Below are positions 58,404 to 63,826 of a stretch of DNA of 64,000 bases, piece by piece. The notes under the pieces are model-generated. The model was not told where the DNA came from, made no database searches, and saw only the letters and a program-made list of their open reading frames with translations. This DNA is from Cliona cf. orientalis (Eukaryota; Porifera; Demospongiae; Clionaida; Clionaidae), in contig OZ005699.1 of NCBI GenBank assembly GCA_963930775.1, positions 1,137,501 to 1,201,500 on the forward strand, read 5' to 3'. Made by a program: the position numbers and the translations under genes. Numbering within the stretch: position 1 is the first letter of the stretch; every line of letters begins with the position of its first letter.

Positions 58404-61400
58404 ATGGCAGTACAGAGGGCAAAAGACGTCTTCATCAGCTATGGCAGGGAGGAGGGAGTTAGGGAGTTCGTGAAGCAGCTCAAAGTCGACCTGGAAGCGA
58501 ACGGAGTGAGCGTGTGGCTGGACGCGGACGACATTCCAACAGGAAGCGATTTCCACATTGAGATCGGAGTGGCCCTCAAGTCTTGTCGCGCCCTGATACC
58601 CGTTCTCACAAAGAAGTACGTGCAGTCTCGCTACTGCAAGGGAGAACTGTACGTGGCTAACGGTGAGAATAAGGTGCTCCTTCCGGTGATCTATGAGGAT
58701 GGATGGGACGAGGGAGAGGAGGGGGCAGGGGTCAACTATATCGTAGCTGCCTACAATTGGGCGTTTTTCAGGCCGAGCGTGGACGATCATAAGACTAGCT
58801 TGGACAAGCTCGTTCATGGAATAAAGCTGAAGCTTCAGGATGGCTCAGAGAAACCAGTGGCTACTCAAAAAGGTGTGCAACCTGAATATGTATGCGTATA
58901 CGTGCATATCAACCTAAGTAATAGTTATATCACGGGCGCGAGGGATGTATGGCATTTATTGCACCGAAGCACGAGGGCGCAAAGCGCCCGAGGGTTGAGG
59001 GCAATAAATACCATGCATCCCGAGTGCGCGTGATATAACTAGTTTATATCCCGTAGGCATAGCTACCATAGATACGCATAGAATACTAAAAAAAGAAAGA
59101 AAGACAAGGCTATCTTACTCAAAACGGACACACAAAGCCGCTCTCTGAGTCCAGTTCTCGAACGTCAATCGAACTTCTGAACGTCTCGTGATCGAGGGGT
59201 GTGGTCAAACCCACACAGCTTGCTATAGCCATCCGACTATTGACGATGAACTATCAACTGCAACGTCGAGCTCAGAAGCCAGGAAACAAGCTCGAGCTGT
59301 TGACTATCCTAAAAGCAAGGCTACGTGCCTACGCAGTAAGCTTGCCTGGATACGCGTACACTGTGTTGACTCGCGATCGATCGATCGACGACTCCGCCCA
59401 TCTCTTCGAACTAGCGATCTCCCGCTACTTTTCCCGCCATATGTTCCATTTAGTCTCGCGAGACGCTCCATTGATAGTTTTACTTTTGTTGCTACCAACA
59501 TATTTATTGTTTAAGGCCTGCAGTGTTTAATATTGCACAGTAAATTTACCTGAGGCTACTCATATTGCACAGTTACCAGTGCAATATGGCTAATATAGCA
59601 CATAGCAACAACATAGCAACGGGATATAAATAATGTATAAACCTGGCCACAAGTATATCCATGTAATCCCCTCCCCTTCAAGTATCCAGATGTTAGTTGT
59701 GCTTCATACTAAGTAAATTATACATAATTATTATAGGTTTTTCATGCCCTTAAATTCCTATGTTGAACTTAAAATGTTACTTAATTCTGCCTAGAGGGAT
59801 TGTATTAGCTGATTTCGTTAATAATATTATTCAGGTTCTGAATCTCTGGGAGTGAGTATGGCATTGGCTGTGAAGGACATCGAGAGGTGGCAGGAGCTAG
59901 GCCACCAGTTGGACATCAGTCCAGAGAAGCTTTTGGAACTTCTAAATTCCGGTCAGAGTGGGGCTGAGTGTAGAGATGAGATGGTAGCCTACTGGGAGAA
60001 ACACGACAACGATGCCTCCTGGGAGAAGCTTGCCCGTGCTCTGGCCAGAATGGGAGAGAATAAACTGGCAGAGGAGATCGTTGATGAGCACGTAAAAAAG
60101 ACGAGCACTCCCTCTGTGCAGCTGCTTCCCCAGGAAGTTGAACTAAAAAGTAAGTGTTATAGTATATATATAGCTCTTAATGACGGATACATTAAAATAG
60201 TATCAATAATTATAATAATATCAGGTCCTATAGCTAGTGCCATATAATTCAGTTTAATATTATCATCTCACTGTACTAGTGTTTTCTTATAAAGTTACCG
60301 ATACTTCATAAATTGCAGCTGATAGTTCTCCTGGACCAGCATCTTCTGGAGTGGTGAACAGCAATGACGTACCTGACTCTAGCGATGACACTGATGTTAC
60401 CTCACAGATTCAAGAATTTGAAGAGAGATTTGAGAGACTCGAGTTTGCAAGTCTGACGGAGCTGGAAGAGAAGCAAGTAGACCTGAAGCGATTCCGTCAC
60501 TCACTCATTCTCCTCCCTGCCAAGATCAAGAAAGAGCACGCCACCTTCTTGAAGGAAAACCTTCCCACTATCTCAAAAGCTGAGAGTATTGATGAAATCT
60601 TCATGCAACTCAACCTCCACTGGAATTTCATCGACTGTTCACTCCTTGAGCATATAGTCAATCGATTCGGTAGCGAGGAGATTAAGAAGGATATGATCCA
60701 GTATGTCTCTGATTTGGAAGCATTTCGAAAAGCGACTACCGTCAATCAGATGATTCGCTGTTGGCCCGGTCGAGTTGAGCCGCCCCCTCACTTCTCTAAA
60801 GTCACTTGCAAGCTGAATCGCGATGCGGCCACATACACGCTCCACGAGCTTGATCAACTGCGTGTGAGATTCTGCCACGAATTCTCTCTCTCGGATTCCA
60901 TTATGATGCTCCATAGCTTTATCGCAGGGTCCGTGGTTGTAGTATGGATGATACCTTCGGGAAGTGTCCATGATTTACGCATGGAGTTACTCAGACATGG
61001 AAGTATGAATCCAGAGTTCTTTGAAGAGTATGCCATATTAAGCATCATGGTCGATGATTCGTGCGCCTACCTGTACATGCCAGTGACGCTCGATCCAGTG
61101 GCTGCCTCCCCCACTCCAACTCCTGCAAAGCATAGGTTAGTTATGGTAATCTGCTACTCACATATCACATATTTACAAAATGTCATACTTCTATCAGGAG
61201 TAGTCCGTAATACTTCAGTACATTGAACTGTTTAAGTTGTAGCTGTTTGTTTTATGGATATAGTAGCTGTGTAGATCCAAAACAATTCCCAAAATTAAAA
61301 GTATATTACCCTTAGTCTTGCATTGTGCATGTGTATACTGACCACTGGCATTATACATTCATAAAATCCCACTTATTATAAGTGCATGGAATCCTGTATT

Positions 61401-63826
61401 AGTACTCTAACTGTGATGGCTGAGTATTTCGACATAAGTAAATTTTTTTTGCATCTACAGTAATTTCTACTTCAACATGACGCACAGTCTCTATGCCTGG
61501 TATGGTAAACTCGAGGCTCTGACCCTACAGACTGAATTCATCTCTCTCTCGAGATTAGAGGTCAGTTTCATTTCAAATTCCTAAGCAGTGGCAAGCTACT
61601 ACTTGCTCATTCCAACCTCAATAATATCATTTTGACATATCAAACCTCCATTTTTTATCTTTGTGATCAAAGGCTCACCCCATTGATGATTTACATCACC
61701 CTAGTTAATAAACCCAATTTGAATTGTACTTATAACACTTTATACATGACCTCTTAATCATTGTACTGTTGTATTATTATTATTATGCAGATTGATGCTC
61801 TTATTACTTTTGAGGGAAGCAGAACCCGGGAACAAAACCTGGCCTATGTAAGACTTGAGGAGCGAGTACGCCAAGTGCTAGGTGGTGGAGCCATGATCCA
61901 TATCAATGGCATGTGAGTGAACAAGTACTATTACAGTAGTAAAATATCCGTAAAGCTCAAGTGGTTTAATTATCCTATGGCATAATTTTATGCCCCCTAA
62001 CTTAAGTACATGTGTTATGTGCTTAATGCTTAACTTGTGCTGGTATTTCTTACAGGAGTTGTAAAGATTATTTTGCTCAAATGGAAATTCCAGTGACCCC
62101 CGATGCTGTTATACGTTCCATGGAGGAGGAAGACTACACTCCTGATCTTTACCCCTCAAATAGGGAAGGTTAGTCTAAAGAGCTGCGTAATTGACATGAC
62201 TTTATGTGCTTTATTGGCGCTTACCCCCCCCCCTCTCTCTCTCCCTCCCTCTCTCTTTCTCTTTCTCTCACTTAATACTAGACGGGAGCAGACTTATTGA
62301 TAATGCAGAGAACAAAGTACTCCGTGCATTTCAGAGAGCTTTCAATGAGCAGTTATATGGGCTTAGAGCATTTCCGTTGCTTAGAGATAGCCCTAAGGTC
62401 GTGCAAACCTTAAATCAGCTGAAGCAATTTGCAGATTTCGACTCCAGTGATGTTAACTTCTATCTGAGTGTCACGAAGTGGAATCGACTGATTGCTCAAT
62501 ATCCTGGATTGGAGTTCAGGGGATTCGTTCAAGGGGTAAAAACGCAATCTCAGCTAAAAATTGTTTTCATATCCTATACAGTCTATATAGGCCCTATACT
62601 CTAAGCTTTTGAATAATGCAATCGCATGAATATATTATGCAGTGAGAACCTAAAATTTAGTAGCAAAATAATTATTTCAATAGGAGAAAAGGGTTGAATG
62701 AGGATCGAGATGTAACTTAAATTCAGGTACTAGTAGCTGGTACATGTATCTTTCATTAATTGCACCTGGATACAACTCTCTATTGCAGAATGTTCTTCGA
62801 GCTGTTTCTCAGATAGATTCCGTCATCTACTATCCCTATGTGGATGACCACAAGCCCACCATTCAAGGTTTTATAGAAGATTTCTTCCTTGCCCACATTC
62901 TCCCACAGCTCAAGGAGCTGGAGAACTACACTATCGACTTCTTCGTAACACCAGATAAGGTAGAAAGTTAATTGCTTACACAATACCGTAATTAATCTAA
63001 TACTACGTATGGAAATTTTTTTTTTCAATTTTGAAAAACATGCGCTTTTCTGGTAAAGGTCGTCAACATTCGTAAAAAAAATTAATGCTAATTTCTTACT
63101 TTAGATTGGCATTGTATTTGATTAACTATGGTATCATAGGTTGATTTTGAATTGTTTGTTTGTGTGTGTGGTGGGGGTGGAATGTAAGTGGCTCCATGTA
63201 ATAAACCAGGCAAAGGATAGCTACTAACTAATCATGTCAGTAGTTGTACAAACTTTTACTATGACATTCTTGAATAATGACACGTACTGCATGTAGATAT
63301 ATGTGATGAAGTTGAAGCCACTGAATGCCAGCACTGATACGGCTCTTTTCACCTGGTCTCAACTGATGCATTTGTTTGATAGAGCAGAGCAACATTCAAC
63401 ATTTGAATTTCAAACAGTTACGGGTGCTAAACCTCTCCCTGATGTGTTTAGTGAACTTGAGGTATGTGCATAATAACACCTATCTGCAGTGCTGCTGATC
63501 TCTCTCTCTCTCTCTCTCTCTCTCTCTCTCTCTCTCTCTCTCTCTCTCTCTCTCTCTCTCTCTTCTCTCTCTCTCTCTCTCTCTCTCTCTCTCTCTCTCT
63601 CTCTCTCTCTCTCTCTCTCTCTCTCTCTCTCTCTCTCTCTCTCTCTCTCTCTCACTCATACACACTCTCACTCCTATTAATTTTTATCTTCCCTTAGCCT
63701 TCCACAGCTGCCATGCTTAAAGAAGTTATGCTGAATATGAGGCCACAGGGGCATCATGCTATGCAGAGGAGAAGACGTGTACCACCACCACGGAATGTCA
63801 AGAAGGCTGCTTGTGTACTCTCTTAG
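58404..63826 (+). CDS. TIR-Death-unnamed region-CDC123-like fusion with CaaX end
   Basis: Ten exons give 884 residues: 58404-58872, 59835-60149, 60319-61135, 61461-61560, 61791-61912, 62056-62168, 62282-62535, 62789-62959, 63297-63461, 63698-63826. TIR (~6-150) and Death fold (~163-250) are almost the same as in the gene at 50071. An unnamed region follows (~285-525). Residues ~535-830 match CDC123/D123, the ATP-grasp protein that helps assemble eIF2: LYAWYGKLEALTLQ near the start, then LSVTKWNRL, LEFRGFVQG, VSQID..YYPY, IEDFFLAHI and TDTALFTW. The DFNP metal site of CDC123 reads KLKP (792-795), so ATP turnover is doubtful. The end, KKAACVLS, is a farnesyl-type CaaX box. The alternative is that MTHSLYAWY (from 61477) starts a separate gene, but the exon is preceded by an acceptor and the phase fits the fusion. 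Confidence 0.72.
58923..59040. mobile_element. 118-base near-perfect palindrome
   Basis: AGTTATATCAC at 58923 is mirrored by GTGATATAACT ending at 59040. About 40 bases at each side pair with few mismatches, and the centre (GGGCGCAAAGCGCCC) is itself palindromic. It lies in intron 1 of the TIR-CDC123 gene and looks like a small foldback element. Confidence 0.75.
59043..59630. mobile_element. Inverted-repeat element in the same intron
   Basis: Begins TTTATATCCCGT and ends ACGGGATATAAA, with partial further pairing (GGCATAGCTACC against AGCAACATAGC). It is about 590 bases, richer in CG than its surroundings, and directly abuts the palindrome at 58923-59040. The two may be parts of one composite element. 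No transposase is seen. Confidence 0.6.
63500..63653. repeat. Long (CT)n tract in the last intron of the TIR-CDC123 gene
   Basis: About 150 bases of CT repeats with one break near 63564, lying 45-200 bases before the acceptor at 63696 on the coding strand. It extends the normal pyrimidine tract enormously. Confidence 0.95.

Follow-up and report, generated by a model that had tools for sequence, protein, structure and literature searches.

A predicted TIR-Death protein with a degenerate CDC123-like domain in the sponge Cliona cf. orientalis

A gene at positions 58404..63826 (+ strand) of the 64 000-nucleotide stretch analysed (hereafter the window) of Cliona cf. orientalis is predicted to encode, in one open spliced frame, a protein of the order TIR–Death–NLR-associated module–CDC123-like domain–polybasic CaaX tail. 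The architecture is known from the gene model of this one genome, where one such fusion was found; in the parts of the open-licence papers covered by our literature search, no described TIR–CDC123 fusion was found. On the basis of the sequence, the joining of the TIR-Death part to the CDC123-like part is very probably a real gene architecture. The reading that we tentatively prefer, at somewhat less than an even chance, is that a single gene encodes an NLR-like immune protein whose CDC123-like domain, catalytically degenerate, would stand in place of NACHT–LRR and serve for input or docking.

The ten exons form a single frame of 884 codons followed by a stop, and all nine introns (9/9) are GT–AG with compatible phases. 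The in-frame fusion proposed in the initial annotation is thus borne out by the introns, their matching phases, the 884-residue frame and the domain profiles. Exon 1 (58404..58872) carries the start codon and the TIR (residues 1–157). The Death domain is encoded by exon 2 (59835..60149), a symmetric exon of 315 bases in phase 1–1. Exon 3 (60319..61135) encodes the NLR-associated module (residues approx. 285–531) and then a short proline-rich linker, and exits in phase 2. The GT–AG intron 3 (61136..61460) is the module junction and splits a serine codon (AG/T). The CDC123-like domain begins in exon 4 (61461..61560; 100 bases, phase 2–0) and continues through exon 5 (61791..61912), exon 6 (62056..62168), which opens with the loop equivalent to that of R111 (SCKD), exon 7 (62282..62535), which includes the strand EFRGFV with its conserved Arg, exon 8 (62789..62959) and exon 9 (63297..63461). 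Exon 10 (63698..63826) encodes the polybasic tail, the CaaX box CVLS, noted previously and present here, and the stop codon.

The CDC123-like tail is attached to the shared head at an intron boundary (61135/61461). Here two adjacent genes could have been wrongly joined, one for TIR–Death–module and the other for a CDC123-like protein starting at the ATG at 61477, or the fusion could reflect occasional read-through. This ATG is in frame and lies directly ahead of the WY motif; moreover, the intron 3 donor has the lowest score among the nine, yet is better than 94.3% of the GT sites in the window. Polyadenylation-like signals are scattered over the gene: ATTAAA occurs once each in introns 2 and 3, and AATAAA once each in introns 1, 4 and 8. 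The single ATTAAA inside the 325-base intron 3 would suit two genes, but a 3′ UTR and a promoter would hardly fit into that length. A kinase-bearing paralogue has the identical split serine codon (phase 2) where its copy of the module ends, and the intron 3 acceptor outscores about 99.9% of AG sites; both observations argue against separate genes. The same applies to the homologous gene on C8 (see below), which has no ATG at the place of 61477, although an in-frame ATG occurs farther upstream in the same open frame. We therefore regard a wrong joining or read-through as very improbable.

The TIR matches the Pfam profile TIR_2 over residues 9–136 (76 bits) and the Death domain matches its Pfam profile over residues 173–238 (25.9 bits, cut-off 22.6). 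A PDB search with the TIR gave 15 matches, including SARM1 and other NAD-cleaving TIRs. In a structure-matched alignment, the putative NADase glutamate E81 (58644–58646) is aligned with the SARM1 glutamate, which we take to be the catalytic residue. A glutamate is aligned in 5/5 cases among the alignments listed, every one of them with SARM1. Since the TIR keeps this residue, NAD cleavage is possible, the NADase assignment being based on the motif only. The dN/dS values are 0.09–0.21 for the TIR core in all six pairs (four TIR paralogues) and 0.08–0.10 for the Death domain (3/3 pairs).

The region encoded by exon 3 had been described as unnamed. It proves to be an NLR-associated module and is not unique: the same genome has at least 142 matches to it. 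In a database protein search, 15 of the 19 matches combine it with NACHT, the module being ahead of NACHT. Two frames of the sponge genome also have the module in front of NACHT. The module is not named by Pfam, NCBIfam or the PDB profile search. The newer Pfam family PF27087 is listed for 12 of the 15 module-bearing database matches and not for three that likewise bear the module; the Pfam scan made here gave no such name. An AlphaFold2 model of the module (pLDDT 78.6) has two lobes; fold comparison, in which a Death-effector fold was tested for one lobe, gave middling Z values only. We thus describe a widespread NLR-associated module unrecognized by all the libraries searched. The head and module were recovered in the 19-match search, and D123 is absent among the domains listed for these 19 proteins. 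The fusion protein has an NLR-like arrangement, the Death domain preceding the module that elsewhere lies ahead of NACHT; among its Pfam matches up to E 1, there is no NACHT or LRR.

A profile search against CDC123/D123, the check proposed in the initial annotation, matched D123 at residues 678–845 (profile positions 122–289 of 300; 79.2 bits, cut-off 24; E 4e-22), the match starting within exon 7. Residues 534–677 are outside this match. Their first part has 44% identity over 36 residues (E 7e-6) with the CDC123-like gene on C8, and MAFFT also aligns it with C15 and C18, so that the tail looks full length. The catalytic set of the CDC123 ATP-grasp domain comprises K104, D233 and D246xN248 (PMC4431377). 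This set is incomplete in the tail: the K104 place, on the final strand of exon 5, is His; D233 is kept as D780 (exon 8, 62936–62938); and the D246xN248 ATP/metal pair is replaced by KxK (K792 and K794, 63309–63317) in the exon 9 motif YVMKLKPLN. The strand-1 Arg and a loop lysine are kept. The earlier description of a full-length CDC123-like domain holds as regards the D123 match and the N-terminal part; the domain is not CDC123 itself, since the ATP/metal pair is lost and a canonical copy exists elsewhere. R2K-clade kinship and the retained D233 and loop lysine would fit an ATP-grasp enzyme that tags immune targets and is active despite its unusual residues. With lysine at both the D246 and N248 places and histidine for K104, such an enzyme is highly improbable.

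Because the pair is KxK, it is also unlikely that the tail works as an eIF2 chaperone. In Arabidopsis, CDC123 with the D251N change binds eIF2γ more weakly and does not help eIF2 assembly in vitro; the authors liken this change to a yeast mutant in which the ATP-binding DIN sequence is altered (PMC10898606). On the strength of this result, eIF2γ binding by the tail is predicted to be weak. This bears on the proposal that the protein is a translation-control effector acting as a dominant-negative chaperone: after TIR/Death activation, the tail would capture eIF2γ without completing assembly, and eIF2 and translation would fall. The tail is indeed related to CDC123 by profile and alignment, CDC123 binds domain III of eIF2γ (PMC8844851), and it drives translation during NLR immunity in plants (PMC10898606). 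However, ATP-site changes lower eIF2γ binding in Arabidopsis and, as cited there, in yeast (PMC10898606), so KxK should bind poorly. Over the core, the tail is 35% identical to human CDC123 and the canonical copy 51%, and the CaaX box would shift the protein to membranes. We consider this effector distinctly unlikely. Of the tie first suggested between sensing or NAD cleavage and translation control, possible NAD cleavage (E81) survives, whereas the link to translation is weakened by the KxK pair and the intact canonical CDC123 elsewhere.

That canonical CDC123, with its pair intact, is found at another genomic site (C5), and a part of its sequence, joined by hand, reaches 237 bits against D123, compared with 79 for the fusion tail. 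The nearest relative of the tail is the second CDC123-like gene, on C8 (51% core identity), which has a basic tail ending in GCVIL (CaaX CVIL) and Arg at the D246 place. The two genes have in common a 171-base exon (exon 8) and, if C8 is spliced at the CCATAG acceptor, a 100-base exon matching exon 4 in the same phase. The intron phases of the CDC123 part agree at six junctions matched by eye, which argues against a retrocopy origin of this part. In an unrooted tree of seven sequences and 110 columns, the fusion domain and C8 are separated (90) from canonical CDC123 (99) and from two intronless copies (100); C5 groups with human and fission-yeast CDC123 (99) and the fusion domain does not. Among the matches listed, there is no TIR, Death domain or module near C8, its upstream side being left out. 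As C8 already lacks D246, already has a CaaX box and has no head match nearby, the CDC123-like domain was probably already decaying when the fusion arose, and its decay does not have to imply use as bait. Protein-database searches with the CDC123 part gave no relatives among 1922 and 1414 candidates; even ordinary CDC123 was missed, so this result says nothing about other animals.

The tail might have a simpler role, the CDC123-like domain and polybasic CaaX merely placing or scaffolding the TIR-Death protein at a membrane and taking no part in sensing. The basic tail and CaaX box are common to C8 despite the 51% core identity, as such a role would suggest. Prenylation, though, does not call for a folded domain as large as this (about 300 residues), and the neighbouring TIR-Death gene has a tail without CaaX; we find plain localization doubtful. 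In the NLR-like reading preferred here, the CDC123-like tail would be the input or docking part and not a working eIF2 chaperone. Prenylation at the CaaX box would hold the protein at the membrane; the CDC123-like domain would bind a pathogen factor or a CDC123 partner such as eIF2γ, or dock the protein; this event would cluster the TIR and Death domains, which might then signal via NAD cleavage or recruited Death-fold partners.

There are three genes within about 75 kb that share a TIR-Death head and differ in their tails: CDC123-like, TPR–thioredoxin and kinase–ubiquitin-like. The neighbouring gene (50071..56427, + strand; 17 exons, 1123 residues) encodes TIR–Death–module–TPR–two thioredoxin-like domains. 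Its Death match (18.2 bits) is under the Pfam cut-off of 22.6, its module exits in phase 0, compared with phase 2 in the CDC123-like gene, and its end is GRRLR. In its thioredoxin-like domains, the tryparedoxin motif WCPPC reads WCPPS and WCPPG, the second active-site cysteine being lost in both. The kinase–ubiquitin-like paralogue is 63 kb away; its kinase keeps the catalytic motifs, and thus not every tail is dead. A SAM domain behind a TIR on C17, spotted by eye, is unsupported by Pfam. The trio may represent integrated-decoy receptors of animals: locally clustered genes that keep the TIR–Death–module head constant and exchange the tail, the tails being derived from cell machinery and two of the three having lost active-site residues. 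The prenylated pseudo-CDC123 would then be bait for microbial factors attacking eIF2 assembly, and NAD cleavage by the TIR the alarm. In the gene model, a copy of a host-protein domain does stand on an immune head (CDC123-like on TIR-Death); we nevertheless judge the full decoy scheme unlikely.

Among known systems, MyD88-type adaptors also have TIR and Death within one protein. Their order is Death then TIR; the fusion protein has TIR then Death, over 600 further residues and the SARM1-aligned glutamate. Animal NLRs (Death–NACHT–LRR; sponge NLRD) resemble it in the Death domain followed by the module, which precedes NACHT in NLRs of the database and of the same genome; the fusion protein differs in having a TIR in front and a CDC123-like tail instead of NACHT and LRR, which were not found. 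With CDC123/D123 (PF07065, R2K.1 ATP-grasp family) the tail shares the 79-bit profile match, D233, the strand-1 Arg, the basic loop residue and the N-terminal part; it differs in the KxK pair, the His at K104, the CaaX end, the TIR-Death head and its separate tree branch. In the NLR immunity of plants, CDC123 acts by way of ATP and eIF2 assembly as a key translation activator (PMC10898606); in the sponge, a domain related to this host factor would enter an immune architecture by a different route, within an animal TIR-Death protein. Integrated decoys of plant NLRs (PMC4246468) are similar in the common immune head, the swappable domains resembling host proteins and the active-site loss, seen in two of the three tails here. 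The sponge protein differs in being from an animal, in having neither NB-ARC nor LRR, and in a decay that was probably earlier than the fusion. The three genes make up a defined set on which one can test whether animals, like plants, join host-target mimics to immune heads.

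The fused gene runs on the plus strand from an ATG at 58404 to a stop at 63826 and comprises 10 exons and nine GT–AG introns with consistent phases throughout. It forms one frame of 884 codons, in agreement with the ten-exon fusion of the initial annotation. Pfam places TIR_2 at residues 9–136 (76.3 bits), Death at residues 173–238 (25.9 bits; cut-off 22.6) and D123 at residues 678–845 (79.2 bits, E = 4e-22; cut-off 24); the last match bears out the description of the tail, encoded from exon 4 on, as CDC123/D123-like. Among PDB sequences, the tail matches human CDC123 (8phd, E = 6e-13) and a second Cdc123 (4zgn, 4zgo and 4zgp, E about 2e-4), which we take to be that of fission yeast. 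The latter identity agrees with the available part of PMC12860950, which, together with the residue numbering, also assigns 8phd, a 'homolog' by its entry name, to human. Intron 9 contains a CT repeat of about 150 bases (63498–63653).

We consider the TIR–Death–CDC123-like fusion very likely to be real. Its doubtful junction, correctly singled out beforehand, is 61135|61461, whose donor, at the 94.3rd percentile of GT sites, has a poorer score than those of the other eight introns. This low score counts against the junction, as do one ATTAAA in the intron, an ATG at 61477 in frame with the tail, and the phase 0 exit of the module (the NLR-associated region of exon 3, residues approximately 285–531) in a neighbouring gene; ATTAAA also occurs in intron 2, and AATAAA in introns 1, 4 and 8. 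In favour of the junction, exon 3 ends in a serine codon split AG|T, and the identical split closes the module of a third gene, there followed by an unrelated ubiquitin-like tail. The first exon of the tail, 100 bases long, likewise corresponds to a homologous exon of 100 bases and equal phase in a CDC123-like gene on contig C8, if a CCATAG acceptor is used. The C8 exon has no ATG at the place of 61477 and has one further upstream within its open frame.

In the tail, histidine aligns with the place of human K104 and lysine with that of R111; these human letters are in line with PKLNWSSPR of the copy on contig C5. According to the available part of Burroughs et al. (PMC4431377), K104, D233 and D246xN248 of human CDC123 correspond to ATP-grasp catalytic residues. 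Because the 8phd chain numbering runs 20 ahead of theirs (counted by hand), D233 is placed at D780, and D246 and N248 at K792 and K794.

The genome holds five CDC123-like loci (10 rows, nine candidates). The C5 copy is canonical: FDIYR and LIDFNP are intact, its core is 51% identical to that of the human protein, and a part joined by hand scores 237 bits. Single open frames on C15 (L008, 362 residues) and C18 (L009, 376 residues) keep an ExN motif and form a second side family, separate from canonical CDC123. The C8 gene (C8:8321.9–8328.5 kb, minus strand; L015 and L078) is intron-rich (77 bits), contains long Glu/Lys/Pro-rich inserts, has Arg at the D246 place and Asn at the N248 place, and ends in GCVIL (a CVIL CaaX box). 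It is the nearest relative of the fused tail. In an unrooted tree (seven sequences, 110 columns), the two fall on one side (90), and canonical CDC123 (99) and the intronless C15 and C18 copies (100) on the other. The tail thus probably derives from a CDC123-like side family in which loss of the ATP site had begun and the prenylation box was present before fusion, the C8 gene being compared without its upstream side.

Two reports favour the suggestion that the tail might link a TIR–Death protein to translation control: in plant immunity, rising ATP is accompanied by eIF2 assembly driven by CDC123 (PMC10898606), and CDC123 is described as an ATPase acting on eIF2 assembly (PMC12860950). The plant substitution D251N, however, reduces eIF2gamma binding (PMC10898606), which argues that the KxK copy would not be a working chaperone.

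Exon 1 (TIR) has three close genome copies, 81–82% identical, among 31 matches (38 candidates). The Death exon has two (80% and 74%) among at least 91 matches, the other 88 of the 91 reaching 42% at best (457 candidates, 150 scored). TIR–Death heads of this type therefore number three, all lying in a stretch of contig C11 about 75 kb long. The neighbour (50071–56427, plus strand, 17 exons) encodes TIR–Death–module–TPR and two Thioredoxin_8 domains, its Death match (18.2 bits) being under the cut-off. The tryparedoxin motif WCPPC reads WCPPS in its first thioredoxin-like domain and WCPPG in its second, so that the second active-site cysteine is replaced in both; the alignments shown for this part take in the first domain. 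Upstream, at 47154–49706 (plus strand), lies an 850-residue open frame with segments repeated by eye and a C-terminal, CaaX-like CSVM. The third gene (C11, approximately 1.128–1.133 Mb, minus strand; L004, 4969 down to 1; five stretches in the part covered) encodes TIR–Death–kinase–module–ubiquitin-like repeats and lies near C11:1.13 Mb on the strand opposite to the fused gene, the starts of the two genes being about 63 kb apart. Its kinase retains the lysine, HRDL-N and DFG, which we take as the motifs to judge it by. A further Death match is found just upstream on the other strand (C11:1132767–1132991).

The Death exon is of phase 1-1 in all three genes, as is the kinase exon, which suits insertion through exon shuffling. 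The TIR cores are under constraint (dN/dS 0.09–0.21 in all six pairs, 113 codons); Death gives 0.08–0.10 in all three pairs (62 codons). The TIR has 15 PDB matches, including SARM1, bacterial and plant TIRs, and E81 stands opposite a glutamate, presumably the catalytic one, in the five alignments shown, all to SARM1. Behind the fourth TIR copy (L049, contig C13) comes an open frame that encodes B-box, filamin and NHL (TRIM-like), and a database protein (P0002) combines a 79% identical TIR with filamin and NHL; this TIR type is thus joined to further tails too. The module is hugely expanded in the genome (e.g. L033, L040, L021 and L038; at least 142 matches; 142 scored of 496 candidates), precedes NACHT at some loci and, on contig C14, occurs more than once inside very long open frames of up to 3702 amino acids.

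The architecture, the shared head, the loss of the ATP pair and the retained TIR glutamate are shown for the fused gene, and a CaaX box is present in two relatives, the fused tail and the C8 gene. The protein may be anchored to a membrane, with the tail as an input or docking part and TIR or Death clustering giving the output. A constant head with mimic tails would fit an integrated decoy, as described in the available part of PMC4246468; this reading is weakened because decay in the C8 gene seems to precede fusion and because the kinase of the third gene looks active. The open-licence literature searched yielded no described TIR–CDC123 fusion, as the initial annotation had supposed, and the term CDC123 was counted zero times in the available part of a Dysidea avara survey (PMC12909245). 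That part of the survey counts 14 TIR genes, a single one of which also carries Death, alongside 126 of the NACHT-LRR type.
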